Assembly (NCBI GenBank): GCA_900546355.1 | Contig: URCM01000065.1 | Coordinates: forward strand, 1 to 18,155 | DNA: 18,155 nt | From: an uncultured Bacteroides sp. | GTDB taxonomy: Bacteria > Bacteroidota > Bacteroidia > Bacteroidales > Bacteroidaceae | Direction: 5' to 3' | In this document: positions 2,410-18,135 of the stretch, in pieces | Position numbering within the stretch: the stretch's first letter is position 1 | Layout of the letters: each line of letters starts with the position of its first letter | Program-made: the position numbers and the translations under genes | The notes under the pieces: model-generated | Told to the model about the DNA's origin: nothing | Database searches by the model: none | What the model saw: the letters and a program-made list of their open reading frames with translations, nothing else

Positions 2410-2420
2410 TTGTCGTTTGT

Positions 2421-2786: not shown

Positions 2787-2796
2787 GACTCTCTGT

Positions 2797-3552
2797 TCAG
2801 ATGTTTACGCATACTTCTACCGGGCAATGGTCGGAACCGAAAATCTCGGTGTGGATAGCGGCACTTTCCAGTTTGTCGGCAAGGCGTGCGGAAGCCAGGA
2901 AGTAATCAATGCGCCACCCGGCATTCTTCTCGCGTGCCTTGAACCGGTACGACCACCATGAATAGATACTTTCTTGTTCGGGATAGAAGAACCGGAAAGT
3001 ATCGATAAATCCAGCGTCCAGTAAAGTTTGGAACTTCTCGCGTTCCTGGTCGGTGAATCCGGCATTCATGCGGTTGGTTTTCGGGTTTTTCAGGTCTATT
3101 TCTTTATGGGCCACGTTCAGGTCTCCACAGACCAATACAGGCTTTTTGGCATCGAGCGCCAGCAGATATTGGCGGAAAGCGTCTTCCCATGTCATGCGGT
3201 AATCCAGCCGTTTCAGCCCGTCTTGCGAGTTGGGGGTATATACGGTCACCAGATAGAAATCTTCCATTTCCAGTGTGATGACTCTGCCTTCACGGTCGTG
3301 CTCGTCAATACCCAAACCGTAGCTTACTTGCAAAGGTTGGTGACGGGTAAAGATAGCTGTGCCCGAATAGCCTTTCTTTTCAGCATAATTCCAATACGAG
3401 GTATATCCGTCGAAAGCCAGGTCAAGCTGTCCTGCCTGCATTTTTGTTTCTTGCAGGCAAAAGAAATCAGCGTCCAGCTGGAGGAATGCTTCGCGGAATC
3501 CTTTGTCACAGCAAGCGCGAAGCCCGTTTACGTTCCAAGAGATGAATTTCAT
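2797..3552 (-). CDS. xth: Exodeoxyribonuclease III (AP endonuclease, ExoA/Xth family)
   Basis: Base-excision repair enzyme that cuts at abasic sites and has 3'-5' exonuclease activity. The 251-residue product shows the EEP-fold motifs: WNVNG at 6-10, LQETK with the metal-binding Glu35, GYSGTAIF, VYTPNSQ, GDLNVAH, IDYFLAS and the terminal GSDHCPV. The start is set at the ATG at 3552 (MKFISWNVNG). The longer frame from 3576 would overlap the end of the preceding gene and adds residues unlike any family N-terminus. It lies 7 bp downstream of the PorT-like gene in an otherwise envelope-related operon, so its place is probably operonic convenience. Confidence 0.94.
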   Translation of the reverse strand: MKFISWNVNGLRACCDKGFREAFLQLDADFFCLQETKMQAGQLDLAFDGYTSYWNYAEKKGYSGTAIFTRHQPLQVSYGLGIDEHDREGRVITLEMEDFYLVTVYTPNSQDGLKRLDYRMTWEDAFRQYLLALDAKKPVLVCGDLNVAHKEIDLKNPKTNRMNAGFTDQEREKFQTLLDAGFIDTFRFFYPEQESIYSWWSYRFKAREKNAGWRIDYFLASARLADKLESAAIHTEIFGSDHCPVEVCVNI

Positions 3553-3559
3553 ATAATCT

Positions 3560-4249
3560 TTATTTTTGTATATCAAACAAATAGGTTAGCCGCGCGCCGA
3601 TATACGAATGTGCCGAGCGCGAGAACGGGTCTTTCTTCGAATTGTTGTAGAAGTCCGCCAAGCCGAAGTAGTAACGCGCTTCCACGATGAAGTGGCCAAT
3701 GCCCGTACGTACTTCCAAGCCGCCTCCACCTACGATGCCATAATCGAATTTCTTGTCCGCCATCTTTCCGTATTGTTCGTTTGGCGTTCTTCCGGAAGGG
3801 TCCCACGGGTCACTCATCGTTTCTTTTTCGTTGAGCAGGTAGCCCACTTGCGGACCTAAATTGAGGACAAAACGCACGCCGTTGCCTTTGTCTTTACCGA
3901 AAGCGAGGTGTGCCAGCAACGGAATCTCGATGTAATTCATCGCACGGTGATACGTATTGCCCGTCTCGTCTTCGATGACTTCTTTCCAACCGCGTTGGGA
4001 AAAGTTCACTTCCGCTTGGATACCGCAAATCATGCTGAAATATTTTTCGCCGATGTAGCGCACGGTTACGCCGAATTCGGGACCAATCAGTTTGCTTTGT
4101 TTGAAACCAGGAGTGATGCTGATAGAACTGAAGTTCACCCCGCCGTTCACTCCGATGGCTAAATTGCTGCGTTGGTCTTGCAGTTGGGCGTTCGCCGGCA
4201 AGCTATACAGCATCAGCCCTGTCAGAAGAAAAAAGAATATCCGTTTCAT
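3560..4249 (-). CDS. PorT-like outer membrane beta-barrel protein
   Basis: Exported protein of 229 residues with a clear signal peptide (cleavage near ANA|QLQ, residues 20-23). The mature part alternates short amphipathic beta strands with polar loops, for example GVNGGVNFSSI, YIEIPLLAHLAF, FVLNLGPQVGYLL, FDYGIVGGGGLEV and FIVEARYYFGLADF, and ends in an aromatic-rich strand (YIGARLTYLFDIQK). This resembles the Bacteroidota outer-membrane beta-barrel family that includes PorT. The specific function is unknown; I do not claim a type IX secretion role. It follows the LysM/PBP1 gene by 6 bp, and proteins of these two families often occur together, which suggests an envelope-linked pair. Confidence 0.82.
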   Translation of the reverse strand: MKRIFFFLLTGLMLYSLPANAQLQDQRSNLAIGVNGGVNFSSISITPGFKQSKLIGPEFGVTVRYIGEKYFSMICGIQAEVNFSQRGWKEVIEDETGNTYHRAMNYIEIPLLAHLAFGKDKGNGVRFVLNLGPQVGYLLNEKETMSDPWDPSGRTPNEQYGKMADKKFDYGIVGGGGLEVRTGIGHFIVEARYYFGLADFYNNSKKDPFSRSAHSYIGARLTYLFDIQK

Positions 4250-4255
4250 GTAAAA

Positions 4256-6052
4256 TTATTCAAAATCAAGTTTGATCAGCTCATAATCTTGCGAGAAATG
4301 CACGAAAAATATCTTGCGGTTGATGAACCCGCCCCAATTGTTGACACGTTCAAACTTAAAGCCGGTCTGTATCGGCACTACGTTTAAACGGTTCAGGTTG
4401 TTTTCCAGCTTATTGCCGTACTTCGAGAGGCCTTTCAGGAAATAATAGCCGATGTCGAATCCCAACATGCCGTATTTGGGATAAATGTTCGCCATATCCT
4501 TGCTATACCAATGGCGGTAGGCATGGGTGAAATTGACCGCAGCCGGAAACAGGTTGTTGGTGTAGAACGACGAATAGAAATACGTGTCCAGTTCGTAGAA
4601 ATTGGCCAGGAAATCCTGTGTGTATGTCTGCCATTCCGGATAACCGAAAAGGTGCATGTCGAAGTGCGGGTGTTCTTTACGTACCAAGGTGAGGTGGGGC
4701 ACCAGTTTGGTCAGTGCCGTGCTGCGTGCCGAAATGGGGATAAATACATTTTGGCGCGTGGTGTCCATCGCACCGATAACTTTGTTCGGGTCGATGTTTG
4801 TTCCCAGCCGGATTTGGCTGAAACGGATGCCATTGTCTTTCAGTTCCGCCTTCATGCCTTTGATGAAGTCGGCTTTTTCCGGGTCGTCTGTCCCATCATC
4901 GAGGAATACGACGTTGCTTTGTCCGAATTTGCGGATAAAGTGTTCATATACTTCAGAGTACAGGTAAGATTGCGGCGTGTTGATTTGGTAAAGCAACGGG
5001 CTGTTGAACACTTCGTCCACTTTCGGTGCGAAAGGGACTATCAGCCGGATGTTATGCTGTTGGGCAAAGTCGGCCACAGAGGTGATTGAGCCTGGGTTTA
5101 CCGGGCCGATAATCAGGTCCATGTCTTTCATGACGCCGTTTGCCAATATTTTGTTTGTTCCTGCTTTTGTGCCTTTCGTGTCATACGCGTAAATATCCAT
5201 GGATACGTTTTGGCGCTTCAAGCTGTCGGCCGCTATCAGGAAGCCTTCGTAGAATTCCACAATGCGCGATTGGGCTTCGCGCTTGCTTCCCGCCGTCTCT
5301 TTAGAGAAAGGCAGCATCAATGCCACTTTGATGGTGTTGATAGGTTTCTTCTCCGTTACGCTTTGGCTGAACAGTTCTTCGTTGGTCGGTTCTATGACCG
5401 GTGCAGGAGTTTTTTCCGCTTCCACTTCCTGTTTCGGGTAAGGGATGAAGAGGAAAGTGCCCCGCTTCAGTTTGCCTTTCTTCAGTTCGGGATTGGCTGC
5501 TATCAGCTCTTCCTCGGTGATGCCATATTCACGGCTGATGCTGAAAATGGTTTCGCGGCGTTGCACCTTGTGCATGGTTTGCCAGTCGTCCTTCTTCGTT
5601 TCCCCGGCAGGTTGTGCGGAAGAGGCTTGAGTTGTTGTATCGGGTTCGCCGGTAGATGCCGGAATGATGACAACTTGCCCTATGCGGAAATTTTCGGCAC
5701 TTAGTCCCGGATTGGCGGCGCAGATGGCTTGTGCTGTCACGCCGTATTTTACCGTCAGTTGGTAAAGGGTTTCTCCCGTCTGAATCGTGTGATACTGGGG
5801 AGCATGGCTGCTTGTCCCCGATGCCTGAGGTATTTTCAGGGCTTTTCCGGTACGTATTTTCTGGTCGCTTCCCGGATTCATCCGCACGATGTCGTCTACC
5901 GATACGTTATACATACGTGCTATCGAATAAAGACTTTGTCCTTTGGCCACGGTGTGCAGAAAGTATTCCGTATTTCCGTTTGTTTGTGCTGTCGCAAAGG
6001 GCTGGCCCATAAAGAGCGCGGCCGCAAAGCAGAGAATATGAATGAATTTCAT
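4256..6052 (-). CDS. LysM repeats plus periplasmic-binding-protein-fold domain
   Basis: First gene of the minus-strand operon, 598 residues. A signal peptide ends at ATA|QT (about residue 22). Three LysM peptidoglycan-binding modules follow at about 31-75, 87-131 and 161-204; each has the x-V-x-x-G-x-T/S-L-Y-x-I-A start and an NP...L-K-x-G/I-P end. After a Pro/Glu-rich linker, residues 241 to about 590 look like a type 1 periplasmic-binding (ABC amino-acid receptor-like) fold, starting IKVALMLPFS and including DLIIGPVNPGSI and VVFLDDG. No transporter genes are nearby. Known relatives are annotated as PBP1 and LysM proteins. I infer a wall-attached sensor or structural protein; the ligand is unknown. 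Confidence 0.88.
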   Translation of the reverse strand: MKFIHILCFAAALFMGQPFATAQTNGNTEYFLHTVAKGQSLYSIARMYNVSVDDIVRMNPGSDQKIRTGKALKIPQASGTSSHAPQYHTIQTGETLYQLTVKYGVTAQAICAANPGLSAENFRIGQVVIIPASTGEPDTTTQASSAQPAGETKKDDWQTMHKVQRRETIFSISREYGITEEELIAANPELKKGKLKRGTFLFIPYPKQEVEAEKTPAPVIEPTNEELFSQSVTEKKPINTIKVALMLPFSKETAGSKREAQSRIVEFYEGFLIAADSLKRQNVSMDIYAYDTKGTKAGTNKILANGVMKDMDLIIGPVNPGSITSVADFAQQHNIRLIVPFAPKVDEVFNSPLLYQINTPQSYLYSEVYEHFIRKFGQSNVVFLDDGTDDPEKADFIKGMKAELKDNGIRFSQIRLGTNIDPNKVIGAMDTTRQNVFIPISARSTALTKLVPHLTLVRKEHPHFDMHLFGYPEWQTYTQDFLANFYELDTYFYSSFYTNNLFPAAVNFTHAYRHWYSKDMANIYPKYGMLGFDIGYYFLKGLSKYGNKLENNLNRLNVVPIQTGFKFERVNNWGGFINRKIFFVHFSQDYELIKLDFE

Positions 6053-6079
6053 GTTTCGTCTATTGAATGGTTTCGGCAG

Positions 6080-6088
6080 GCAAAAGTA
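6080..6088 (-). promoter_or_regulatory. Promoter core for the LysM-porin-xth-dgkA-PAP2 operon
   Basis: On the minus strand the sequence reads TACTTTTGC, matching TAnnTTTG, about 27 bp upstream of the ATG at 6052. A convincing TTTG at -33 is not seen. Together with gaps of 6-11 bp between the genes, this suggests one transcript down to 1849. Confidence 0.55.
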
Positions 6089-6279
6089 CGCATTTTTATT
6101 GGTAGACTCACGAATATTGCCAAGAATTTACGGTTTATAAAAGAAAAAAGTGAAATATGCTTGCCGCACGCTTGGCGTTTTATCGGACACGGAGGCGCGC
6201 AAGCGTAAATATATTCCACCCAACGTGTCAATTTTTAAATCTCTACGTTTGACTTTATTATCCTAATAGTCTCCCTTTT

Positions 6280-6362
6280 ACGTTCTCCGTCCCAAAACCG
6301 TACGGTTTCCGTCCCAAAAACATACGGTTTTGGTTCGGAGAACGTACGGTTTTGGGACGGAA
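6280..6362. repeat. Interlocked inverted/direct repeat cluster
   Basis: A unit of about 18-19 bp, CCGTCCCAAAACCGTACGG, appears four times: forward at 6287-6305 and 6309-6327 (two changes in the second), and inverted at 6321-6338 (imperfect) and 6343-6360. In addition ACGTTCTCCG (6280-6289) pairs with CGGAGAACGT (6336-6345). The inverted copy at 6343-6360 can pair with either forward copy, so several exclusive hairpins are possible. The cluster lies between divergent promoters (6080-6088 minus, 6511-6541 plus). It may be a dispersed intergenic repeat or a regulator-binding array. Confidence 0.7.
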
Positions 6363-6510
6363 ACCATAAAAAGAAACCGTCTGCACCGGCGATACAACCC
6401 GTATGTTTCGGCAAATGTATCGTGGCTTTTTGGAAACGGTTTCTAACTGCCCGTAGTTTTCGTTTTTGATTGATTCGATTCAAAATAGGGCAAGATTTCT
6501 TTACAATATT

Positions 6511-6541
6511 TTTGTGTTTACGAAAAAATGTATACATTTGT
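6511..6541 (+). promoter_or_regulatory. Promoter of the antiterminator-caspase operon
   Basis: TTTG at 6511-6514, an 18-bp spacer and TACATTTGT at 6533-6541 closely fit the Bacteroidales promoter TTTG-N19-21-TAnnTTTG. It is the best plus-strand promoter between the LysM operon and the antiterminator gene. Its transcript would begin near 6548 and carry a leader of about 600 nt. I see no inverted repeats bracketing it, so it does not look like an invertible capsule-type promoter. Confidence 0.65.
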
Positions 6542-6546
6542 ACTCA

Positions 6547-6977
6547 GACTCTCGGGTCTTGCGCTTTAATGCTTGAGGCGACCCGCGCCGGGCAGAGTGT
6601 GGCGAAGCCGTTACAGGTTAAGCCATACGAAGCGGGCTTTGGGCGGGAAGGAGAGTCAAGACATAATGGAAGGCGTTTACTTTGACGCTCTGTTTGAGAC
6701 GATCCGAAATCTAGCAAATTTACGAATCAAAGTCTTGAACATAGCAACGGTAGATGCCCGGGGTGTGATTTATATCACAGCCTTTGGCGTATCCTGCCAG
6801 CCCGAACTATACCGTTCGGGCACAAGGGGTTTCTATACCTATATAATTAGGTGTGCCAAGACTGGAGCGGTATACATTCATATCGGCGTGGGCTCTGACG
6901 TTGTCTGTTCAACTTTGATGGGCAGTGCTAGAGCCTCGGATCGTGGGACGGACAACAGGACGGACTCACGCTTTTTT
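6547..6977 (+). ncRNA. Structured leader RNA / possible attenuator
   Basis: The leader holds many complementary segments: 6547-6553 with 6651-6657 (closing a domain that contains 6554-6558/6580-6584 and 6620-6624/6635-6639), 6764-6769 with 6774-6779, a perfect 8-bp hairpin 6800-6807/6814-6821, 6891-6896 with 6930-6935, and 6900-6910 with 6946-6956 (11 bp, two G-U pairs). Some pairings exclude each other: 6656-6662 can pair with 6732-6738 instead of closing the first domain, and 6900-6910/6946-6956 clashes with the terminator stem. I do not recognise a known riboswitch class. An open frame runs through it (ATG at 6666), but no protein family was recognised. In Bacteroides fragilis capsule loci, UpxY proteins act on their own leaders; a similar role here is inference. 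Confidence 0.5.
6942..6977 (+). terminator. Candidate intrinsic terminator inside the leader
   Basis: CGTGGG (6942-6947) pairs with CTCACG (6965-6970), including one G-U, around a 17-nt loop. After a single C comes TTTTTT (6972-6977). The loop holds the first of two direct copies of GGACGGAC (6946-6953 and 6958-6965). The stem is only moderately strong, but the T-run is the best in the leader and lies about 170 bp before the antiterminator ATG, where an attenuation site would be expected. Confidence 0.45.
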
Positions 6978-7143
6978 ATGTCTGTACGTTTAAAGGTATA
7001 ATCATGCCGATATGGACACATTGCCTGATGTGAACACCCGACGAGGCGGGACAGAACCTCCTCACGCCGGATTTGCCTCCGGTGTCTCCCCCAAAGCCAA
7101 AGATTCATCAGTAGGGGTGTCGGTAAGGTATGCTCTACATCCA

Positions 7144-7686
7144 ATGAAACGTTGGTATGTATTGCGTGCCACTTACAACCGCACGCTCAAGGCATACGGT
7201 GTCTTGACAGAGAAGGGGATAGAGGCTTATCTTCCGATACATTATGTACAGAGAGACTTCAACGGCAAAAAGAAACGCATCGCAGAGCCGCTCCTTCCCA
7301 ATTTCTTGTTTGTTTACGCTACCTCGGAAGAGGTGGAAACCTGCGTCAAGCGCACTCCTGAACTTTCTTTCCTTTCTTATTACTACAACCATTTCCAGAC
7401 CGACCCGGCAGGCAAGAACCGCCCCTTGACGATAGGCTACGATGACATGATGAACTTCATCCGGGCAACCTGTGTAGACAACGGACACGTCCGGATAGTC
7501 AGTCCGGAGCAATGCCGTTTCAAGGGCGGCGATAAGGTGCGGGTTATCGAAGGCGCGTTTGCCGGAGTGGAAGGCAGGGTAGCCCGCGTGTCTGGCCAGC
7601 AATGCGTGGTGGTCGACCTGAAAGGCGTTTGCTTGGTAGCAACGGCTTATATACCGACCGGATTTTTAATGCGTATAACAATATAG
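7144..7686 (+). CDS. NusG-like processive antiterminator, UpxY family
   Basis: Specialised NusG paralog of 180 residues. The NGN domain covers about residues 1-110, starting MKRWYVLRATYNRTLKAYG and including EAYLPIHYV and LLPNFLFVYA. The KOW segment is at about 126-152 (FKGGDKVRVIEGAFAGVEG). UpxY proteins bind RNA polymerase and let it read through termination signals in the leader and body of their own long operon. The frame is open from an ATG at 7012, but the family N-terminus starts right at the ATG at 7144, so that start is chosen. It is the first gene of a seven-gene run, 26 bp before the next gene. Unusually, the downstream genes are not polysaccharide genes. Confidence 0.88.
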   Translation: MKRWYVLRATYNRTLKAYGVLTEKGIEAYLPIHYVQRDFNGKKKRIAEPLLPNFLFVYATSEEVETCVKRTPELSFLSYYYNHFQTDPAGKNRPLTIGYDDMMNFIRATCVDNGHVRIVSPEQCRFKGGDKVRVIEGAFAGVEGRVARVSGQQCVVVDLKGVCLVATAYIPTGFLMRITI

Positions 7687-7712
7687 AAGTTTAACTCTTA
7701 AAAAATGAAAGT

Positions 7713-8159
7713 ATGAAAACAATTTCGCTTCGGTTTATGGCACTGATGTGCTTAGGCTTAGCAGTCTCTGCGTGTGATGAAACAGAAATTACAACCGTCC
7801 TGTACTCTTCAGATATGGCGGATTTCACCGTAGCTAATCAGACTACCGGTGAAACGGTAGAAAACGAAACGCTGCAAACCGGCGGTTTGAAAGCCTTGGA
7901 AGTCCAGCCCGGCGACGTGTTGCGTTTATCCTACACTCCTCCCGAAGAGTATAAACAATACAATTGGGAAGTGGAATTTATCGCGTTCAATGATACGGTA
8001 AAGGTATCTTCCCCTTATGTAGCCAATTACACCATCGCCCATACGGAGCCAGGCGAGTATAGAGTGGCTTGCAGAGGGACGGTAGTGGCACAACAAGATG
8101 AAGAAACCACTTGGGTAGGTGAAGATACCGGTTCGGTTCGTGTTAAAGTGGTGGAATGA
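7713..8159 (+). CDS. Exported lipoprotein, unknown function
   Basis: A 148-residue lipoprotein: N-terminal MKTISLR, a hydrophobic stretch and lipobox AVSAC with Cys21. The residues after Cys are acidic (DETE), which resembles the surface-export signal of Bacteroides lipoproteins, so outer-leaflet display is possible. The mature part is polar and beta-rich. Its last third (YKQYNWEVEFIAFNDTV, then YTIAHTEPGEYRVACRGTVV) looks like an Ig/PKD-type fold in which a THTEPGEY-like turn precedes the last strands. Base composition resembles the antiterminator rather than the AT-rich genes that follow. No specific role is recognised; it may be the surface partner of the system. Confidence 0.8.
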   Translation: MKTISLRFMALMCLGLAVSACDETEITTVLYSSDMADFTVANQTTGETVENETLQTGGLKALEVQPGDVLRLSYTPPEEYKQYNWEVEFIAFNDTVKVSSPYVANYTIAHTEPGEYRVACRGTVVAQQDEETTWVGEDTGSVRVKVVE

Positions 8160-8189
8160 GGTTTGTGTGATTGATAAGACTGGATTATC

Positions 8190-8810
8190 ATGTTTAATCG
8201 AATGGATTTCTTGAATAAGCATAGGATATTGCCTGCTGTCATGGTGGCATGTTCTATGCTTTTTGTGTTGTCTTGTTGCGTGTTGCAGAGGAATAAGGAA
8301 CTTCGGCACGATAGTGATAGCATTGGGGTGTGTACAGATTCTGTGGTGTCTTCATCAGATACGTTTTCTGTTGCAAAGCTCGATTCTGTTAGGAAACAGG
8401 AATTGTTTTATGCGCTGCAACATACGGATAGTATGTCTTTGTATGTCATGCATTTCCCAAAACAATCTGATGACTCTGTTTATGTTGATAGTCTTTTCAG
8501 CTATCCGGTAGAAAAATGTATAAGAAAAATTTCCAAAGAACAACGTGCGGTTCTCGTGTTTCTATTGACTGATGATAGGATGCTTGTCGGGAAATGTCTT
8601 TCTGTCAGGCAACCCTTTTTCCCAAAATTCATTGTTTGCATAGCAGCCCCTAAAGGAAATGTCTATTTGTTATTCTCTTTAGGAACGGAAGAAATGGGCT
8701 TTTCTTCAGACGGTATGACCTATTCAACATATATGATTACTGACTTCCGCTCTGTCTTGCGATGGATAGATGCGGTTTTGCCTGACATGAACATTTTAAC
8801 CATTTATTGA
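8190..8810 (+). CDS. Hypothetical exported protein, probable lipoprotein
   Basis: 206 residues from the ATG at 8190; the ATG at 8202 (MDFLNKHRIL) is an alternative start. A hydrophobic segment at about 13-32 contains Cys21, Cys29 and Cys30. VLSC at 26-29 is a loose lipobox, so lipid attachment is probable but not certain. The mature region begins polar (Ser/Asp-rich, about 35-60) and continues as a mixed alpha/beta domain with SKEQRAVLVFLLTDDRMLVG and a hydrophobic strand FPKFIVCIAAPKGNVYLLFSL. I do not recognise the family. The gene is clearly AT-richer than the one before it, and the caspase ATG follows 8 bp after its stop, so translation is probably coupled. Confidence 0.7.
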   Translation: MFNRMDFLNKHRILPAVMVACSMLFVLSCCVLQRNKELRHDSDSIGVCTDSVVSSSDTFSVAKLDSVRKQELFYALQHTDSMSLYVMHFPKQSDDSVYVDSLFSYPVEKCIRKISKEQRAVLVFLLTDDRMLVGKCLSVRQPFFPKFIVCIAAPKGNVYLLFSLGTEEMGFSSDGMTYSTYMITDFRSVLRWIDAVLPDMNILTIY

Positions 8811-8818
8811 TTTTCTCT

Positions 8819-10006
8819 ATGAAAAAGATATGTTTCTTGTTATTGTTAAGTCTTACACTTGTTCAAAGTGTACAAGCCCAGACGCTTCATGCGATTGTGT
8901 TTGCAAATACGAAATGCCCAGGAAATCCTCGAAAGCCTAATGATCCTGGTATAGGAGCGTCTGTTATGTGCGATTATCAACGTATGCGCATTGAATTGGA
9001 AACCATAGCTACTTTTTGTGGATACAAAAAAGATTTTCAGATGTATGAAGGTTCTCCGCAAAATTTTTGCAGGGACAAATTGGAATACGCTTTGAACAAC
9101 TTGAAATGTGGTAAGAATGATATTGTATTCTTTTATTATTCCGGTCACGGAGGGCGTCCAGAAGTGATGACAAAAGATTCATTTCCCCATATGCAACTTC
9201 TTGTAAACCCTTTCAATCCTAATAATATTATAAAGGCGAGGAATTATTACCCGTTGTCACAGGTTTTGAAACGTATAAAGTCTAAACGTCCAAGATTGGC
9301 AATTGTTATAGGAGACTTGTGCAATAGTACGTCACCTTTAGTTCCTGTTGAAAACGTAGCATCAATGAGAGGTATTACTAAAATATCAAAAATACCTTGT
9401 GAGTTTTATAGGGCTTTATTTTTGAAAGTAAAGGGGAGTATTATTGCGACTTCAAGTAGACCAAAAGAAGTATCTAAGGGGGATGCTGTTTACGGGGGGT
9501 ATTTTACAGCCAGTTTTACAGAAGCCTTGCAAATCATGATAACTGAAAACATGAAGCCTGATTGGAATACGTTATTTGAAGGAAGTAAAATCCGGACGCG
9601 GGCAAGAACAGGTGGAGAACAAAATCCTTACTGGGAGCTTGACATACATCCTGCTGATGAAGCTCCTACCCATGATGTTTTAGATAATCCCGAACCTGTA
9701 ACGCCTCCTGTTCAAACAGATGGTATAGATACCTATTTAACGACTATCGGAAATGATCATACTCCTATTAACGAACGGATACGGCTGATTGATGTGGTGT
9801 TATCTAAATTCTTTTCTTCGCCTAAGGCCAAAGTGGAGGTAGTGGGAAAAGACGGGAAGACCATTGTGGCAACCAAATATGCAGATATGTATCTAAATAA
9901 TCTCAGCATAGCCAGGAAGTTGGTGAAAGTGGTTACTGTCAATCAGGAAGTAAACGGAAGTGGAAAATTAATTTCCCTGAAAGTTCACGAAATGTATAAA
10001 CTGTAA
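8819..10006 (+). CDS. Secreted caspase-fold (C14-like) cysteine protease
   Basis: From the ATG at 8819 the product is 395 residues, with a signal peptide ending at VQA|QT (about residue 20). Residues 23 to about 280 show a caspase/metacaspase hemoglobinase fold: strand LHAIVFANT, helix region DYQRMRIELETIA, strand NDIVFFYYSGHGG with catalytic His110, then RLAIVIGDLCNS with catalytic Cys168, and SIIATSSRPKEVS. Both dyad residues are present, so it should be active. After a Pro-rich linker (about 283-305) comes a C-terminal domain (about 306-395, including RIRLIDVVLSKFFSSPKAKV) of unclear family. A TTG at 8807 would extend the frame but spoil the signal peptide. It is secreted, unlike typical cytoplasmic bacterial caspases. 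Substrate unknown. Confidence 0.86.
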   Translation: MKKICFLLLLSLTLVQSVQAQTLHAIVFANTKCPGNPRKPNDPGIGASVMCDYQRMRIELETIATFCGYKKDFQMYEGSPQNFCRDKLEYALNNLKCGKNDIVFFYYSGHGGRPEVMTKDSFPHMQLLVNPFNPNNIIKARNYYPLSQVLKRIKSKRPRLAIVIGDLCNSTSPLVPVENVASMRGITKISKIPCEFYRALFLKVKGSIIATSSRPKEVSKGDAVYGGYFTASFTEALQIMITENMKPDWNTLFEGSKIRTRARTGGEQNPYWELDIHPADEAPTHDVLDNPEPVTPPVQTDGIDTYLTTIGNDHTPINERIRLIDVVLSKFFSSPKAKVEVVGKDGKTIVATKYADMYLNNLSIARKLVKVVTVNQEVNGSGKLISLKVHEMYKL

Positions 10007-10018
10007 TACAGATAGAAA

Positions 10019-10630
10019 ATGAAAAGATGGTTGTTTTTTCTTGCTGTGCTTGTTTGTTGCTTAAACGGTATGGCGCAAACGAATGATTTGACGCAAGAGC
10101 AGAAGGAAAGTTTCATTATGCGGTGTGAAGAAACGATTGAAGCGTTTCAGTATGGGCTGGAGATTATAGGTGATAAGTCTCAAGAAAAAGCGGTGAAAGA
10201 ACATTATAAGAAAAATATCCTGTCCTTTTTTATGGGGAATGGTTTGCCTTATCGGGATACAGAAGGAAGAGAACACCCTGCTGTAAAGATGGAAGTGTCG
10301 ACTGTGCGTTACAACAATGAGATAGGGAAACGGACGTTGTTATTGACTGAATATTTGAGGAATCTTGAAAATTTGAATTATGTAGAAGTCCGTATTACAA
10401 AAGCGCAGACATGTGTGATTAGTGATTTTTATAAAGTCGGCAATCATTACGAAGGGACAGTATCTATCTTTCAATATTTTACAGGAAAGACGAAAGAAGG
10501 TTATATGTACCGTGATAAGACTCAGAAGGATATAAAAGTATATCTTACAAAAGCCATTGATGGTCAGCTTGGCGAGTTTTGGGACTTGAAGTTAGGAGAT
10601 ATTAATGTAGTGGAAACCGTTAAGATGTGA
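10019..10630 (+). CDS. Exported protein of unknown function
   Basis: 203 residues with a signal peptide (MKRWLFFLAVLVCCLNGMA|QT). The mature N-terminus is helical and charged (LTQEQKESFIMRCEETIEAFQYGLEII in sense), followed by a beta-rich half (VEVRITKAQTCVISDF, YEGTVSIFQYF, KDIKVYLT, LKLGDINVVE). A helix pair followed by a curved sheet would suit an NTF2-like fold, but that is inference only. It starts 12 bp after the caspase gene and is followed after 7 bp by another exported gene. The opening T-x-x-Q-K pattern recalls the mature N-terminus of the 743-residue protein encoded at 11413-13644, so the two may share a domain. Confidence 0.78.
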   Translation: MKRWLFFLAVLVCCLNGMAQTNDLTQEQKESFIMRCEETIEAFQYGLEIIGDKSQEKAVKEHYKKNILSFFMGNGLPYRDTEGREHPAVKMEVSTVRYNNEIGKRTLLLTEYLRNLENLNYVEVRITKAQTCVISDFYKVGNHYEGTVSIFQYFTGKTKEGYMYRDKTQKDIKVYLTKAIDGQLGEFWDLKLGDINVVETVKM

Positions 10631-10637
10631 TTGAGTT

Positions 10638-11420
10638 ATGAAAAGATGCATTATTGCGCTATTTATAGTATGGCCTGCTTTTCTGTTTGCGCAATTCGAA
10701 AGCACGGTCATTGATGAATTGGAGCTTCAATTTAAAGTTAAACAGATAGATGAATTCATGAAACGTTTTAATTATGACATAACATTCAATCAACAACCTC
10801 CTGTCAGTGAAGAGGATACTTTAGCTTATAGAAGGAACAGGCTGAAAAATATGCTTACCTTGTTTAATCTGAATAAATACATGAATAAGGAGAAGGAAAT
10901 AAATGACAGTATCCTTCTTTTTATAAATTACGTTATAGATAATCGGTATCGGCTAAATTATGAGGATTCTACATGGTGTGCCAAATTGCAATGTGAAAGT
11001 CTGTATAGAGGTAAGAAATGTATGATAAATCTTTCGCTTCATGTTGAAAGGATAAAAGGAGTGGAATATAAATGGGTCATAGATGGAGTGGAAGGGGGCA
11101 TTTTTGAAATAACTCCGAAGCCAAGTGTAGATTCTCTTTTTATTTCACCAGCGGAACATGGCATTGGCTTCATTACCTTGCCGGACATTATAAATTCGAA
11201 TCCGTCTGCCATAGAGACGTTGGATTATCGAGGTTACATAAAAGATAATCTTTCTGTATTTAATTATCTGATAGCTAGTAAATCTTTAAAGCTTGTATCT
11301 GTAAATTCTGTCGTATATCATTATAAGGTAGGGCGATATGCTTTTGATGTAGAACGAATGGAAAAGGAAGGCAGCTATAATAAAGGATGGCTGATTAATA
11401 ATTTGATAATCTATGAATAA
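10638..11420 (+). CDS. Exported protein of unknown function
   Basis: 260 residues with a signal peptide (MKRCIIALFIVWPAFLFA|QFES). The mature part starts with a helical stretch (VIDELELQFKVKQIDEFMKRF) and a second helix-rich segment (YRRNRLKNMLTLFNLNKYM). A beta-rich C-terminal half follows, with VEYKWVIDGVEGGIFEI, a PAEHGIGFITLPDII segment and a last strand SVVYHYKVGRYAFDVERM. I do not recognise a family. Its stop overlaps the start of the next gene by 8 bp (ATGAATAA), which implies coupled translation and a shared function. Confidence 0.78.
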   Translation: MKRCIIALFIVWPAFLFAQFESTVIDELELQFKVKQIDEFMKRFNYDITFNQQPPVSEEDTLAYRRNRLKNMLTLFNLNKYMNKEKEINDSILLFINYVIDNRYRLNYEDSTWCAKLQCESLYRGKKCMINLSLHVERIKGVEYKWVIDGVEGGIFEITPKPSVDSLFISPAEHGIGFITLPDIINSNPSAIETLDYRGYIKDNLSVFNYLIASKSLKLVSVNSVVYHYKVGRYAFDVERMEKEGSYNKGWLINNLIIYE

Positions 11421-13644
11421 TATGAAAAAATGTATTCTGTTTTTGTTTGTGTTCTTCCCTAATTTCTGTATGTCGCAAGTTACGGAAATGCAGAAACAAG
11501 AAGCGTTATCTACAGCGAAACGCTTTTGCACACTGATGTCACAATTCAGCAATGGTGGAAGTGGTTATTTGGAAAATGACAAAAAGATTTTTTTGATGTG
11601 TTCTACTCCTAAGATTTCTGCCTTTGATGATATTAGTTCAAACAAAGAAATCATGCTTAATGCTTATATGGCGTTAATTACTAAAACTTACAAAAACCGT
11701 TTGCAGATGGATTTTTCAAATCCAGTGGTCTCTGAAGTGTTTTATGTGCCGCAATTTAATATAAGTATGGAATACGCTTCTATCTTTAATGGAGGAGATC
11801 AAGGGACAATGTCGCTCGGATTAAGAAAAACGGATTATTCTGATATTTATATTATCATAAACGTATCGCAAAGTATGCCGACTTTATATAAGACGACTAA
11901 AAGGTATATTGTATATAGTATTGTTGAAAAAAAGATTATTTCTTTTTCTAATACAAATAGTCCGTATGTATTGTATTGTAAGGCATTAGATTGTTACTCG
12001 AAGCAAAAGTATCAAGATGTGCTGTCATATTGCGATAAAGTGTTGGTTGCCGAACGTTTTGATAGGAAATCAGATTGTGCGGTTGTTGCTATGCACACTT
12101 GTTTCCTGATGCAAGATTATAATGCTGTTTCTCGTTATATTAAGTATTATAACGGTGAATATAAAAGTGCTTTTTTAACGCTGATAGACTTTGTTAAAGC
12201 TATTCAGGCGGATGATGTTGAAAAAGCGGTCTCTTGTGCGAAAATCATAGCGGAAAGCAATTTGCCTACGCGTTATGGTATGCAAACAATCTTGGGACGG
12301 TGTTATGCGTTTGGATTTGGAGGATGTGAAAAAGATGTCCCCAAAGCTATATATTGGTATAAAAGAGCAATGCGGGAAGGAAGTGCGGAAGCGGGATATA
12401 ATTTGGCAATGGATTTTGTTAATCCGAATTGTGATATCGATGAATATTTGACTGAAGAAGAATTGGTTGAAAGTGTGAGTATATCAGCTAGTCGAGGTTA
12501 TATCCCTGCATATTCTCTTTTGGGTACAATTTATGGAAGTCTTGGTCAGAGGGAAGAAGAAGGAAACTGGTATAAAAAGTCGGCTGAGAGTAATGACATT
12601 ATCGGAATGATTTATTATGGCTGCTTTTTATCTGTCGTGAAACATGATACACAGAATGCCTTGAGATGGCTTAAAAAGGCGGTGAATGACAAACGGTTTG
12701 ATACGTTTATGGAGTATCAGTATTTTAAGAAAAAAGGGTTTAAGACAAAGGAAGATATACAGCAAATCATCTACAATATAGAGAACGGCATACCTATATC
12801 TTTACCTTCTTCATTTGAAGAACCTGAAAAAGAAGAAGCTCTTTCGCAACCAATAGTATCTAGCCAGCCGAACATTCCTCATCAAACAACCGTTGTTCAA
12901 CCGCAACAGCATCCTCAACAACATTCTCAACAAACAACTACCGTTGACGTAATTTCTACGACTGCTACTCATTCCGAAAATACAGGAACTAGTTCTAATC
13001 ATCATCACGCAACTCCATCTTATCGTTATCGGAAATCGTTCAATAGTCCATCTGACGATTATTGTGTTGCCGGCATATCAATCGGTTATGTTCAAAAGTC
13101 ATGGTCATATAAAGAAGTGGATGGAGGAAAAGGGAAAATTGGTTTTTGGGAGGGAACAAACCATATTAAAGGTGTGCAAGCAGGTCTCCGGATAGAACCG
13201 TTATTTAAATATGGTTTTGGGGTGAATACCGGTTTGTATTATGAATTTTATTATTCAAAAAGCAAACCGTTGGTATATGCAGGGGAAGAATATAAACCCA
13301 CTTTGCAAGAACATGCGCTTTATCTTCCGATACATTTAGAATATAGATTGCATTTTTCAGAGAACTTTCAATTATTCTTTTATGGAGGCATTGGGTTGGA
13401 TTATGGCATTTCTGCAACTTTAAATACAAACAATGAACATTTTACTTACGATGACACGAACGCTTATCATGGTTCAGATTGGAAGAAATTCAATGCCTCT
13501 TTGGAGTATGGCGGGGGGATACGTATTTATATGGTACAACTGAATTTCTCTATTTCTAAAGGGTTGGTCAACATGAGTGAATCTTCTGAATATACAATGA
13601 AGCAGAATAAAGATTTGATGTGCGGCTTATCTGTAATGTTTTGA
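11413..13644 (+). CDS. Exported Sel1-repeat protein with C-terminal beta-barrel
   Basis: 743 residues. A signal peptide ends near CMS|QV (about residue 22). Residues 25 to about 190 form a mixed domain of unknown family. Residues 190-290 look like TPR-type helices (LYCKALDCYSKQKYQDVLSYC). Residues 295 to about 425 contain Sel1-like repeats (RCYAFGFGGCEKDVPKAIYWYKRA, SLLGTIYGSLGQREEEGNWYKKSA, MIYYGCFLSVVKHDTQNALRWLKKA). A Gln/His/Thr-rich low-complexity linker follows (about 470-535). The last 200 residues have repeated amphipathic strands and end in Phe (LSVMF), as in outer-membrane beta-barrels. The overall picture is a barrel in the outer membrane holding a periplasmic repeat scaffold. ATG 11413 is used; ATG 11422 is equally plausible. 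Last gene of the operon. Confidence 0.82.
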   Translation: MNNMKKCILFLFVFFPNFCMSQVTEMQKQEALSTAKRFCTLMSQFSNGGSGYLENDKKIFLMCSTPKISAFDDISSNKEIMLNAYMALITKTYKNRLQMDFSNPVVSEVFYVPQFNISMEYASIFNGGDQGTMSLGLRKTDYSDIYIIINVSQSMPTLYKTTKRYIVYSIVEKKIISFSNTNSPYVLYCKALDCYSKQKYQDVLSYCDKVLVAERFDRKSDCAVVAMHTCFLMQDYNAVSRYIKYYNGEYKSAFLTLIDFVKAIQADDVEKAVSCAKIIAESNLPTRYGMQTILGRCYAFGFGGCEKDVPKAIYWYKRAMREGSAEAGYNLAMDFVNPNCDIDEYLTEEELVESVSISASRGYIPAYSLLGTIYGSLGQREEEGNWYKKSAESNDIIGMIYYGCFLSVVKHDTQNALRWLKKAVNDKRFDTFMEYQYFKKKGFKTKEDIQQIIYNIENGIPISLPSSFEEPEKEEALSQPIVSSQPNIPHQTTVVQPQQHPQQHSQQTTTVDVISTTATHSENTGTSSNHHHATPSYRYRKSFNSPSDDYCVAGISIGYVQKSWSYKEVDGGKGKIGFWEGTNHIKGVQAGLRIEPLFKYGFGVNTGLYYEFYYSKSKPLVYAGEEYKPTLQEHALYLPIHLEYRLHFSENFQLFFYGGIGLDYGISATLNTNNEHFTYDDTNAYHGSDWKKFNASLEYGGGIRIYMVQLNFSISKGLVNMSESSEYTMKQNKDLMCGLSVMF

Positions 13645-13678: not shown

Positions 13679-13819
13679 TGTCTCAAAATAGAAATGGGCT
13701 GTCATTTTGTTATTCTGAACGTGGTGAAGAATCTCGAAAACACAAGCTAATGCACACGAGATTCTTCGCTTTGCTCCCTTAGACATTACTTTTTGATTCT
13801 CAGTTCTCATTTTGAGACA
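13679..13819. mobile_element. MITE-like element, 141 bp
   Basis: Perfect 11-bp terminal inverted repeats, TGTCTCAAAAT (13679-13689) and ATTTTGAGACA (13809-13819), enclose a non-coding segment. Inside is another perfect 11-bp inverted repeat, GAAGAATCTCG (13726-13736) and CGAGATTCTTC (13757-13767). The size, lack of coding capacity and inverted termini suit a miniature element mobilised by a transposase elsewhere. I see no clear target-site duplication. The internal GAAGAATCTC motif resembles a dispersed intergenic repeat familiar from Bacteroides genomes (from memory, not checked). Confidence 0.6.
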
Positions 13820-13829
13820 GCTTAATTTG

Positions 13830-13838
13830 TATCTTTGC
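13830..13838 (+). promoter_or_regulatory. Promoter core for the Fic remnant
   Basis: TATCTTTGC matches TAnnTTTG, 18 bp before the ATG at 13857. The nearest TTTG (13811-13814) lies inside the right end of the MITE-like element at a short 15-bp spacing, so the element may have replaced or damaged the original -33 box. Confidence 0.45.
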
Positions 13839-13856
13839 AAAAAAAAATGATTATTC

Positions 13857-14701
13857 ATGTCTATACATGAACATAAAGATTGGCCTTCGTTTTCATGGAA
13901 TAAGGAATTGGTAGGCGAAAAGCTGAATAAGGTATATAGTAAGGTGGGGTACCTGAAGGGGCGGCTCAGCGTAATAGGCTTCGATGATAGGATGTCCGCT
14001 ATGGTAGAATCGGTCTCTCATGACATTATTGCGTCATCGGAGATTGAGGGGTAGAATTGAACAATGAACAAGTCCGTTCGTCGGTTGCCCGTCAACAGGG
14101 CGTGCAGTTGCCGAATCTTGCAACGTCTTCCCGTTATATAGACGGGGTGGTGGAAATGGCTTTGGATGCGGCTGTGAATTATAACGCTTCGCTTACCGAC
14201 GAAAGACTGTTCGGTTGGCATAACTGCCTTTTCCCTACGGGGTGGAGCGGTTCTGTAAAATATATGTAGTTCAATACCGGCACGGGGAGATGAAAGTGGT
14301 GTCAGGTATGTTCGGAAGGGAAAAAGTGCATTATGTAGCCCCTGCTCCCGATAGAATAAACAGAGAGATGAAACGGTTCTTGGATTGGCTCAATTCCGAT
14401 GTTCATACCGGCTATGTGAAATCGGCAATCGCTCATCTGTGGTTTGTTTGTATTCATCCTTTCGATGACGGGAACGGACGAATCGGACGACCCATAGCCG
14501 ATATGGCTTTGGCGCAAGCGGAAGATTCAAACATGCGTTTTTTCAGTATTTCCCATCAGAAAAACAAGGACAAAAAGCAGCATTACGATATTTTGGAAAA
14601 AACGCAAAAGGGAGATTGTGAAATAACGGAATGGATCAACTGGTATCTTGATTGCCTGATTCGCTCGGTGGAACAGGCTGATAATATTCTATTGAACAAG
14701 G
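13857..14701 (+). pseudogene. Fic-domain protein (AMP transferase family), broken
   Basis: Three consecutive open segments together read as one Fic protein. Segment 1 (13857-14054) encodes the N-terminal Fic region and ends with the inhibitory-helix motif SSEIEG, followed at once by a stop. Adding one base in the G-run restores the next segment (starting VELNNEQVRSSVARQ, to about 14250). A second single-base loss near 14250 (after PTGWSG) shifts to the segment ending at 14727, which holds an intact Fic core, HPFDDGNGRIGR. The last recognisable Fic residues (LLNK) lie at about 14700, where the tatC stop codon begins, so the C-terminal wing of about 70-80 residues is missing. Fic proteins transfer AMP or similar groups to target proteins; this copy should be inactive. 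Confidence 0.85.
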
Positions 14702-15493
14702 CTACTTGTTTGTCCGCTTCACGATGAAGATGCTGGCTTCGTAAAGCAGGAACATCGGGGCGGCTACCAGCATCAGGGTAATGGCATCAGAAGTAGGAGT
14801 GATGATGGCGGAGATAACCAAAGCGATGACGATGGCGTGTTTGCGGTAGGTGCGCATGAAGGCGGAAGTGAGGAAACCCAGCTTGGCAAAGAGCCACGCC
14901 AAGACGGGAATTTCGAACGTGATGCCTAACATGAGGCTCAGCATCGTAAGCGTGTCAATATACGAACTGAGAAGGATGGCGTTTTCCACTTCCGGGCTTA
15001 CCTGATAGAGGGCAAGGAAACGGAAGGTAAAGGGGAAGACCAGGAAATAGCTGAACAATACGCCCAACAGGAACAGTACATATCCCCACACCACTACCCG
15101 CAGGGAGTAACGCCGTTCGTTGGCGTAAAGGGCGGGCGAGACGAAACGGAACAGTTGGTATATAATATAAGGTGAAGCCAGCACGATGCCCGCATAAAAA
15201 GACACGCTCATGTGGGTGAGGAATTGCCCCGACAGTTTGGTGTTGATGAGTTGCACGTGGAAATCGGAAGCCGTTGCGCCCGTCAGATGCAAGGCTTCGC
15301 CAATATAATCGAAAAGCCGGTAGACGAGGAAATCGCTTTCTTTCGGCGCAAGAACAACACGGAACAATTCGTCCTTGAAACAGAACGCTACGAGCATAAA
15401 CATCACTACCACGCCGATGATGCGGAAAAGCACTTTACGCAATTCATCCACGTGGTCCCAAAAAGTCATGTTCGAAGGGTCATTGGATTCCAC
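14702..15493 (-). CDS. tatC: Twin-arginine translocase subunit TatC
   Basis: Polytopic inner-membrane receptor of the Tat pathway, which exports folded proteins. 263 residues from the GTG at 15493, with AAGGAG about 14 bp upstream. ATG codon 9 (MTFWDHVDELR) is an alternative start. The family signature FWDHVDELRKVLFRI is near the N-terminus. Six hydrophobic segments are visible, including FYAGIVLASPYIIYQLFRFVSPAL, VVVWGYVLFLLGVLFSYFLVFP and VIALVISAIITPTSDAIT (the conserved TPxxD loop before the last helix). tatA lies 18 bp upstream, so the two are co-transcribed. The 3' end directly abuts the Fic remnant. Confidence 0.94.
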   Translation of the reverse strand: MESNDPSNMTFWDHVDELRKVLFRIIGVVVMFMLVAFCFKDELFRVVLAPKESDFLVYRLFDYIGEALHLTGATASDFHVQLINTKLSGQFLTHMSVSFYAGIVLASPYIIYQLFRFVSPALYANERRYSLRVVVWGYVLFLLGVLFSYFLVFPFTFRFLALYQVSPEVENAILLSSYIDTLTMLSLMLGITFEIPVLAWLFAKLGFLTSAFMRTYRKHAIVIALVISAIITPTSDAITLMLVAAPMFLLYEASIFIVKRTNK

Positions 15494-15511
15494 GATGCTC
15501 TTTTCTCCTTG

Positions 15512-15727
15512 TTATTTATTTTTCGGAGGATTGTTTTCTTCTTTCTTCGTGTCGGTCTTCAGGTCTTCTTCGATGCCGTTTACACCGTCCTTGAAGTTCT
15601 TCACGCCTTTGCCCAATCCTTTCATCAGTTCGGGAATCTTCTTCCCGCCGAACAAAAGCAAGAAAATCAATACGATAACAACCAGTTCTTGCATCCCGAA
15701 TCCCATAAATAAAAGTGTCGTGCTCAT
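15512..15727 (-). CDS. tatA: Sec-independent translocase subunit TatA
   Basis: 71 residues with one N-terminal membrane segment (about 8-26, MQELVVIVLIFLLLF), then the signature FGGKKIPELMKGLGKG and an amphipathic helix (KNFKDGVNGIEEDL), ending in a charged tail. This is the classic TatA/E layout; the pore-forming role is known for the family. The start is the ATG at 15727, which lies downstream of the promoter core at 15749-15757. The longer frame from 15784 includes the promoter. No separate tatB is seen, as is usual in this phylum. Confidence 0.93.
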   Translation of the reverse strand: MSTTLLFMGFGMQELVVIVLIFLLLFGGKKIPELMKGLGKGVKNFKDGVNGIEEDLKTDTKKEENNPPKNK

Positions 15728-15748
15728 ATCTTCGTTTTTTATTTTCCG

Positions 15749-15777
15749 GCAAAAGTAGGGATTTATTTGAACACAAA
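15749..15777 (-). promoter_or_regulatory. Promoter of tatA-tatC
   Basis: Minus strand reads TACTTTTGC (15757-15749), with TTTG at 15777-15774 and a 16-bp spacer, slightly short for the Bacteroidales consensus. The -33 box touches the inverted repeat at 15777-15843. Confidence 0.55.
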
Positions 15778-15843
15778 GGCGCAAAGAAACGGAGTTTTTT
15801 CTATCCGTTTGGATAAATTATAAATCTTCGTGTCTTTGCGCCT
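15777..15843. repeat. Inverted repeat between sod and tatA
   Basis: AGGCGCAAAGA (15777-15787) and TCTTTGCGCCT (15833-15843) are perfect 11-bp inverse copies; between them TATCC (15802-15806) and GGATA (15811-15815) form a small inner hairpin. It probably serves as the sod terminator or is a dispersed repeat; the arms resemble the common ACACAAAGGCACAAAG type of intergenic sequence. Confidence 0.55.
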
Positions 15844-15860
15844 CTGCGATAACGGTGATA

Positions 15861-16436
15861 TCAAGCAATGCGTGAAGCTACCTTTTCCCAATCTACTAAG
15901 TTCCAAAAGGCTTCGATGAAAGCTGCCCGCCGGTTTCGGTAATCGATGTAATAGGCATGTTCCCATACGTCGAGAACGAGAACAGGCTTCATACCTTTGA
16001 CCAGCGGATTGCCTGCATTAGGTTCAGCGAGGATAGAAAGTTTGCCTTGCGTGTCTTCTACTAACCAAACCCAGCCTGAGCCGAATAAGGTTGTCGCTTT
16101 CTGCGTGAATTCTTGTTTGAACGCTTCGAGCGAACCGAAGTTTTCCGTCAGCTTTCGAATGAGCTTATCGGGCAGGACGGTTTGCTGGGGTGTAAGCGTC
16201 TCGAAGAAAAACGTATGGTTCCATGTCTGTGCGGCATTGTTGAAGATGCCTCCGTCCGCTTTGCGGATGATGTCTTCCAACGGCAAGTCTTCGAATGGCG
16301 TTCCGGTTATCAACTTGTTCAGGTTGTCCACGTAGGTTTGCAGATGCTTCCCGTAGTGGTATTCCAGTGTTTCTTGGCTCATGTGAGGAGCCAACGCTTC
16401 CATCGTATAAGGAAGCTGGGGCATTGAATGTTTCAT
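15861..16436 (-). CDS. sodB: Iron/manganese superoxide dismutase
   Basis: Disproportionates superoxide in the cytoplasm. 191 residues, normal for the family. All four metal ligands are visible: His27 (EYHYGKH), His74 (QTWNHTF), Asp156 and His160 (DVWEHAYYIDYRN). Gln70 in NNAAQTWNH is the active-site Gln placed as in Fe-type enzymes, whereas Mn enzymes usually have Gly here and a Gln near residue 146. Bacteroides enzymes are known to accept either metal, so it may be cambialistic. It follows the start MKHSMPQLPYTMEALAPH. Monocistronic by spacing: 133 bp separate it from tatA, with a repeat and a promoter between. Confidence 0.95.
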   Translation of the reverse strand: MKHSMPQLPYTMEALAPHMSQETLEYHYGKHLQTYVDNLNKLITGTPFEDLPLEDIIRKADGGIFNNAAQTWNHTFFFETLTPQQTVLPDKLIRKLTENFGSLEAFKQEFTQKATTLFGSGWVWLVEDTQGKLSILAEPNAGNPLVKGMKPVLVLDVWEHAYYIDYRNRRAAFIEAFWNLVDWEKVASRIA

Positions 16437-16473
16437 ATTTTCTGCTTTTAAAGGGTTTATAGATAATCAACAC

Positions 16474-16482
16474 GGAAAGATA
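16474..16482 (-). promoter_or_regulatory. Possible sod promoter core
   Basis: Minus strand TATCTTTCC differs from TAnnTTTG by one base and lies about 38 bp upstream of the sod ATG. No clear -33 TTTG was found. Confidence 0.35.
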
Positions 16483-16550
16483 CGAAAAAGTTTTGAGAAA
16501 CAGGGTATTGTTTGGGGAAAATATATTTATCGCACGATGAATTCAAGACT

Positions 16551-16616: not shown

Positions 16617-16791
16617 TATATTTCTTGTGCGCTCATAGGTAAATCAGGTTGATGATGCGGTTTATTGCAACCGGATTGACGGGCTGGTTCGAATGTCCGG
16701 ATAGCCTTTGCCACAGGATGAAGCAATGAAACTGTTTCCGGGGCATTATGGAAGGAAATTTGAACTGATTCGTAAAATGATTCTTTCGGAA

Positions 16792-16824
16792 TTTGTCTAT
16801 GTGGAATATTCTTGATAACTTTCG
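16792..16824 (+). promoter_or_regulatory. Candidate uxuA promoter
   Basis: TTTG (16792-16795), a 20-bp spacer and TAACTTTCG (16816-16824) fit the Bacteroidales consensus with one mismatch (C for G). Transcription would start near 16831, about 48 bp before the ATG. Confidence 0.5.
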
Positions 16825-16878
16825 CCGTCCTTTGAATTTTGAATAAGAATAGGGTTAACAATAAAAAAAGAAAAGCTT

Positions 16879-18072: not shown

Positions 18073-18086
18073 TATTTGTTTTTCAC

Positions 18087-18135
18087 CACAGATTACACAG
18101 ATTATAGTCAATCAGAAATGGATTGCGAAAAATCC
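18087..18135 (+). repeat. Short tandem repeat and weak hairpin after uxuA
   Basis: CACAGATTA occurs twice in tandem (18087-18104), followed by a 5-bp hairpin GGATT/AATCC (18120-18135). CACAGATTACACAGATTA-type sequences are common dispersed intergenic repeats in this group (from memory). Terminator function is uncertain. Confidence 0.4.

Follow-up and report, generated by a model that had tools for sequence, protein, structure and literature searches.

The upxY-Caspase Locus

The window analysed here, the whole stretch of 18,155 nt from an uncultured Bacteroides sp. (contig URCM01000065.1), is a segment of a Bacteroidales chromosome that carries, all on the forward strand, a leader, the antiterminator gene upxY, the predicted lipoprotein gene lipA and five genes for exported proteins, among them a caspase-fold protease (Table 1). 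The initial annotation had read these genes as an operon for an exported caspase system, headed by a capsule-type antiterminator and inherited as one unit; its gene positions, coordinates, motifs and spacing all hold, including intergenic gaps of at most 30 bp and the 8-bp overlap at 11413-11420. The element common to upxY and the caspase cassette, overlooked in that annotation, is the leader RNA. The GC content of 47-51% in the leader, upxY and lipA drops to 34-39% from lipB onward, and this break marks a junction of two units; the AT-rich composition from 8190 on had been noted correctly, but it is the join of two units and not the signature of one.

The UpxY identity of the antiterminator was borne out by the family model NF033644 (136.6 bits vs. 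a cut-off of 100); the RfaH and LoaP models scored 49.8 and 27.6 bits, both under their own cut-offs. The NGN (NusG N-terminal) domain was matched at 38.9 vs. 22.2 bits (PF02357), and the KOW domain (PF00467, E 2.3e-4) fell one bit short of its cut-off (21.3 vs. 22.3 bits). The start of upxY at 7012 is supported by the N-terminal extension, which is kept in close relatives (approximately 45-80 residues in alignment A2, longer at some loci). The caspase fold was likewise recovered with the C14 family profile, the His-Cys dyad being intact, and the Sel1 repeats and the beta-barrel of the last gene product both exceeded Pfam cut-offs.

As the initial annotation had stated, sugar-biosynthesis genes are missing: no polysaccharide synthesis or export families were found among the window proteins (nine searched with Pfam, eight with NCBIfam). 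Of seven scored proteins encoded behind upxY, which include a Fic piece, none had homologs in other UpxY loci; a capsule locus with hidden sugar genes was rejected on the Pfam and NCBIfam results together with this lack of homolog sharing. No upxZ was found as second gene, a position taken by lipA, which has no Pfam match above cut-off and no NCBIfam match. The promoter-like stretch presumably belongs to the Bacteroides -33/-7 type, which it resembles; no convincing inverted-repeat pair that would mark an invertible promoter was found near it, the strong repeats being the upstream palindromes, and its orientation is the same in G001, the nearest genome compared.

Table 1. Features of the window, with positions in nt and the basis of each assignment.
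Feature	Position	Strand	Basis or remark
LysM-protein gene	4256-6052	-	Upstream neighbour
Palindromic array, TACGGTTTTGGGACGG-type units	6276-6371		Upstream of leader; identical in G001
Promoter-like stretch, TTTG ... TACATTTG	6514-6545	+	Sequence; G001 identical over 6500-6545
Conserved structured leader RNA	6586-6978	+	Profile match E 2.3e-96 in window; covariation above shuffles
Leader domain 1, helices 1-2 of consensus	6672-6758	+	Columns 126-221 of alignment A5, mapped by hand
Leader domain 2, long rod closed by GCGTGGG/CTCACGC, then six T; candidate terminator	6885-6977	+	Model R1
upxY, UpxY-family antiterminator, N-terminal extension at 7012-7146	7012-7686	+	NF033644, alignment A2, tree
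lipA, predicted lipoprotein	7713-8159	+	Two protein-database clusters; 1/61 genus genomes
lipB, probable lipoprotein, first cassette gene	8190-8810	+	Iterated family of 32 sequences
Exchanged segment	8279-13826	.	No DNA similarity to G001; aligned flanks 90-96%
Exported caspase-fold protease (C14), C-terminal domain weakly similar to unkC	8807-10006	+	Family profile, His-Cys dyad, hhalign 59.5%
unkC, exported, NTF2-like fold	10019-10630	+	AlphaFold2 model
unkD, exported protein	10638-11420	+	Alignment A3, 16 rows
Sel1-repeat protein, C-terminal outer-membrane beta-barrel	11413-13644	+	PF08238, PF13568 above cut-off
Miniature inverted-repeat transposable element-like element, ends TTGTCTCAAAAT / ATTTTGAGACA	13679-13820		Between operon and Fic gene; G001 unaligned there
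Fic/DUF4172 gene, broken	13857-14727		Downstream of operon; in pieces, two above Pfam cut-off; G001 copy in two frames
tatC			Downstream of operon

A Conserved Structured Leader RNA

The window sequence at 6546-7146 is 68-77% identical, in pieces of at least 300 nt, to the DNA upstream of other upxY genes with the N-terminal extension. In this extended-UpxY set of 46 loci (45 fetched, plus the window), the leader profile matched 26 (L269 weakly); it also matched 3 of 20 other UpxY loci and several upxY-less caspase cassettes. At the 26 loci the leader lies directly before upxY or overlaps the start of its open reading frame (ORF), ORFs in this and the other scripted counts having been chosen mechanically. 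The consensus structure built from the 26 leaders has 43 pairs, 13 of them with changes on both sides; 95.9% of the cells are paired vs. 92.5% after shuffling, and both-side changes occupy 43 vs. 17.3 cells, values that none of 500 shuffles reached. All five covariation measures lay above all 500 shuffles, and sliding the partners lowered the paired cells from 95.9% to 40-50%; as a caveat, kinship may inflate the shuffle result, and the structure was derived from the same sequences. The leader is a conserved RNA with covarying pairs and a U-run at its end. Its second domain, which with the T-run lies approximately 30 nt upstream of upxY, folds with a z of -2.76 (4 of 200 shuffles were equally good).

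No Rfam model matched within 6586-6990 at E <= 1; the only ones listed are microRNA models, below cut-off, on the upstream palindrome. The leader was found in no plasmid record and, as one short match, in phage records, and the caspase gave one distant match in plasmid records; mobility by plasmid or phage is thus not indicated. A scan of viral contigs for the caspase locus found none.

The Exported Caspase Cassette

The gene order lipB-caspase-unkC-unkD was constant in 22 of 25 loci, so that the arrangement exceeds chance and the four genes form a conserved exported module. The initial annotation's expectation of a shared gene order in relatives was therefore confirmed for these four genes and not for upxY, which is no part of the order. 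The gene for the Sel1/beta-barrel protein was listed in 10 of the 25 cassettes. No locus was returned when genome contigs were initially scanned using just the caspase of the window.

Profile comparisons within the cassette gave hhalign values of 59.5% for the caspase C-terminus with unkC, 77% for unkC with the Sel1 protein, 56% for unkD with the Sel1 protein and 33% for unkC with unkD, and of 0.1-0.2% for the caspase C-terminus with unkD and with the Sel1 protein; a domain in common is only suggested. With E <= 1e-15 as the threshold, 20 of the 299 family genomes contained caspases of the wider group, some of them without the cassette. Compared with the window caspase, the P0002 caspase differs mainly around and between the catalytic His and Cys (24/39 and 25/37 identical within alignment columns 121-200), and its C-terminus is identical (from column 321 on), a pattern resembling gene conversion; the P0001 caspase differs mainly near residues 37-52.

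Cassette Exchange and the Leader in Front of Cassettes

Upstream sequence of at least 6.7 kb is available for 18 loci, and in 2 of them, the window and G001, a UpxY/NusG-type match precedes the cassette; G001 has 20% of sampled words in common with the window. The two sequences align at 92.2% identity over 534-8278, 96.0% over 13827-16520 and 90.2% over 16751-18104, with no DNA alignment between 8278 and 13827. Both middle segments are AT-rich caspase cassettes (GC 30-39%) whose caspases are 30% identical. The window's lipB survives in G001 over approximately its first 88 bp, at 94% identity, and is followed there by an in-frame TAG as read from the alignment. Aligned flanks, caspase cassettes without DNA similarity and the lipB remnant together indicate at least one replacement of the cassette, with leader, upxY and lipA staying in place as the head. 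upxY lies outside the conserved cassette unit, and the proposal that antiterminator and cassette are inherited as one was rejected on the 2/18 count and the swap in G001; what stands of the system as first proposed is an order-conserved exported caspase module behind an antitermination-type head, to which the leader is now added. lipA travels with upxY and is nearly an orphan; VSAC-DE is presumably its lipobox. In 20 loci of other genus members beside the LysM gene (L127 and L132 at less than 5 kb), none of upxY, lipA or the cassette genes was found.

The leader model R1 was scanned against 57 sources (26 cassette sources, 13 other caspase loci and 18 genus loci; 978 kb) and gave 12 matches at E <= 0.1, all of them in cassette sources and upstream of the cassette. 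After removal of duplicate loci and of L006, L008 and L037 (less than 1 kb upstream), 21 upxY-less cassettes with at least 1 kb of upstream sequence remained, nine of which carried the leader at E < 1e-3 (L007, L010, L013, L016, L017, L018, L026, L199 and L202; L016 and L017 are near duplicates); six of these (L007, L010, L013, L016, L017 and L199) had already been picked up in a blastn search that used only the window as query. At eight of the nine, 12-69 nt separate the end of the leader from the operon's first ORF; at L018 the distance is 382 nt. Under random placement of the 394 matches in 161 family genomes, a leader within 1 kb on the right strand is expected at approximately 0.0004 per locus, a generous null given that leaders are not randomly placed, so that the figure flatters the link between leader and cassette. 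As far as these sequence comparisons go, it is the leader that connects upxY and the cassette.

The same observations bear on the view that upxY and lipA are the stump of an older locus, behind which caspase cassettes have landed without functional coupling. Such chance neighbours would account for the GC break at lipB, for the 16 of 18 testable cassettes without an upstream upxY, and for the confinement of lipA to this lineage; they would not lead one to expect another caspase cassette as the new cargo in G001, or a leader recurring before upxY-less cassettes where random placement, by the flattering estimate of approximately 0.0004 per locus, predicts hardly any. Chance neighbourhood is regarded as improbable.

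The Extended UpxY Group and its Cargo

At E <= 1e-35, the A2 profile found extended UpxY in 57 of the 349 genomes searched at family level and in 8 of 393 at order level. Cargo types at the 46 loci were assigned by shared gene families and by Pfam on 20 representatives from nine loci, the rest by eye. Polysaccharide-related cargo was seen at approximately 11 of the 46 loci, by eye and with several ambiguous cases. SrfB together with a PF10139 protein, presumably SrfC, occurs at five loci (E 2.6e-188 and 5.6e-103 in Pfam for L243, the other four assigned via shared families). Operons for a type VI secretion system (T6SS), with ClpV-like AAA, TssC, Hcp and VgrG-like proteins, were observed behind extended UpxY at L252, L255 and L271 (TssC E 3.3e-125 and Hcp 2.1e-32 in Pfam for L255; L252 and L271 assigned by shared families). 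As further cargo, L194 has kinase, VWA and PP2C proteins, L196 a weak tubulin-like match below Pfam cut-offs, L247 dynamin-like GTPases, L258 a radical-SAM peptide locus, and L280 an FHA protein, a further C14 caspase and, assigned by shared family, PP2C. Homologs shared with other UpxY loci were found at 6 of the 45 extended loci with scored cargo, vs. 15 of 16 among those other loci (20 fetched, UpxY recognised in 18, cargo scored in 16, some near duplicates). The antiterminator is of the UpxY family as first annotated, but the label "capsule-type" is too narrow, and the window is not a capsule locus; the extended group heads varied long operons.

In the UpxY tree, the 45 extended rows formed one group with moderate support (88/84), over which the cargo is scattered: the five SrfB rows require five changes, the three T6SS rows three, and the 11 polysaccharide rows seven. 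This scatter indicates that UpxY regulator and cargo recombine. At L258 and L276, extended UpxY heads a small gene for a Cys-rich, Tat-type peptide (by eye), accompanied by the radical-SAM gene in L258; the two UpxYs are identical across genomes of two different families, which suggests recent transfer.

At L018 and L280, caspase genes share their operons with FHA genes and with genes for PP2C and kinase, the last two assigned by eye or shared family. These loci possibly represent a second architecture of leader-linked caspase operon, L018 lying behind the same leader as the window; L018 has lipB and caspase with no unkC or unkD detected, and it was counted outside the 25 cassettes and inside the 21.

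Antitermination as a Proposed Mechanism

That antitermination gates an exported caspase module is the explanation leaned towards here, with some reserve. Transcription would start near 6545 and enter a folded leader of approximately 430 nt, at whose end, immediately upstream of upxY, stand a rod and U-run resembling a terminator; some polymerases would read through and allow UpxY to be made. UpxY would then join RNA polymerase and allow passage of the leader and of the 7-kb AT-rich operon. UpxY is described, in the parts of the literature available, as preventing premature termination in the 5' leader of its own operon (PMC7819879, PMC13114119), and by analogy the window operon would be shut by its leader until UpxY is made. 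The cargo would consist of the lipoprotein LipB, the caspase with its own C-terminal domain, the NTF2-like unkC product, the unkD product and the Sel1/beta-barrel protein predicted for the outer membrane; the cassette would be exchangeable as capsule cargo is, and at upxY-less cassettes another UpxY or other factor would act. The sequence itself shows how the genes are ordered, that the leader is present, that one exchange took place and, as predictions, how two of the proteins fold; it counts in favour of the proposal that the site holds a caspase cassette in both the window and G001, two different species, though the DNA has been replaced.

Several results weigh against it. No leader match was obtained at 20 of the 46 extended-UpxY loci, L197 alone being short of upstream sequence (3 bp), or at E <= 0.1 before 11 of the 21 upxY-less cassettes, with L061 marginal (0.064). 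Five of the nine leader-bearing upxY-less cassettes went into building R1, and a simple terminator scan, covering loops of 3-8 only, did not call domain 2. The most novel result is the wide spread of the leader: R1 gave 394 matches in 109 of 161 family genomes (at most 17 per genome), and matched 48 of 295 genomes at the order and 1 of 198, namely G001, at the phylum level. Forty leader copies (L358-L397) were hand-picked from the E-ranked matches listed, outside known extended-upxY loci, and UpxY was found among the next six same-strand ORFs in three of them and not in the other 37, one of which (L362) has no downstream ORF. The first genes after these leaders encode, by eye, exported proteins, lipoproteins, fimbrillin-like, FHA/PP2C/kinase and SrfB-like proteins and methylases. 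Extended UpxY at E <= 1e-80 was present elsewhere in 3 of 8 genomes with a strong-leader upxY-less cassette (G157, G774, G776) and in 3 of 12 with a leaderless cassette (G001, G122, G784), so that no association with leader-bearing cassettes was found, many of the genomes being incomplete; L202, with a weaker leader, was left out of both counts, and its genome G299 has one weak UpxY-like match. The 37 orphan copies and the missing association are the strongest points against a reading in which UpxY alone serves the leader.

They are, with the 394 matches, what one would expect if the leader were a general attenuator that senses something else, such as a ligand, translation, stress or another NusG-type factor, UpxY being one of many genes behind it. 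This is a serious but not the preferred possibility: in two UpxY groups the leader occurs at UpxY start sites (26/46 and 3/20), read-through of a leader is the published task of UpxY, and other UpxYs could act in trans, all eight strong-leader genomes having some UpxY-like match at E <= 1e-10, that of G777 with internal stops. A broader version of UpxY antitermination would make the leader a structured attenuator RNA that unites dispersed Bacteroidales operons for surface, secretion and conflict functions in a single antitermination regulon, with UpxY-type readers in cis and trans and the caspase cassette as a regular cargo. Its odds are lowered by the finding that extended UpxY is not commoner in genomes with leader-bearing cassettes, and it is put forward tentatively, as a doubtful proposition; the leader nevertheless offers a credible route to something larger.

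As to function, the module may be an envelope protease system in conflict or damage response; cassette replacement and the localized divergence of the P0002 caspase would point to a conflict role. A protease for envelope quality control or maturation would equally be accompanied by exported proteins and a beta-barrel, and apart from a weak match to a generic caspase model in PADLOC (E 6.8e-5; unkC weaker, E 0.0049), no known defence system was matched. Such a housekeeping role fits less well with the patchy distribution (20/299 family genomes for the wider caspase group), the AT-rich composition and replacement of the cassette, and the localized divergence of the P0002 allele, and is considered less likely.

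Comparison with Known Systems

The published view, in the parts available, is that of UpxY as a capsule switch. If one UpxY group and its leader indeed gate T6SS, SrfB, kinase-phosphatase and caspase operons, the regulatory layer that chooses capsules may also choose weapons and envelope systems in gut Bacteroidales. With model R1, the operons behind the leader can be listed from the sequence of any genome, and the exported caspase cassette, with its conserved gene order, offers a concrete target for learning the roles of caspases outside the cytoplasm. In the open-access literature, as far as its text was available, neither UpxY heading non-capsule operons nor this leader was found; the leader of capsule loci may already be contained in Saba et al. 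2024 (Nat Commun 15:10862). In the available text, two uncharacterised UpxYs that lack a UpxZ are mentioned for B. fragilis (PMC7593976), and NusG paralogs are said to serve, in general, secretion systems and toxins (PMC7819879).

The UpxY capsule operons of B. fragilis, as described in the same partial sources, are alike in having UpxY as first gene, a long 5' leader and several kb of cargo (PMC7819879, PMC7593976, PMC13114119). In contrast to them, no UpxZ or glycosyltransferase and no clear invertible promoter was found in the window, its UpxY has a conserved N-terminal extension, and the cargo behind it forms an exported caspase module. RfaH and LoaP likewise serve long operons, among which are operons for secretion systems, toxins and antibiotics (PMC7819879, in part); the window protein, however, scores best as UpxY (136.6 vs. 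49.8 and 27.6 bits), and its leader is without an Rfam match. Bacterial metacaspases can contain Sel1/TPR domains and possible signal peptides, yet the order-conserved lipB-caspase-unkC-unkD cassette was not met among their operons in the available part of that survey (PMC3501461). With the caspase/MALT1/metacaspase fold (C14) in general, the window protease shares the fold and the His-Cys pair; it differs in being predicted to be exported, in carrying its own C-terminal domain, and in having fixed partner genes.

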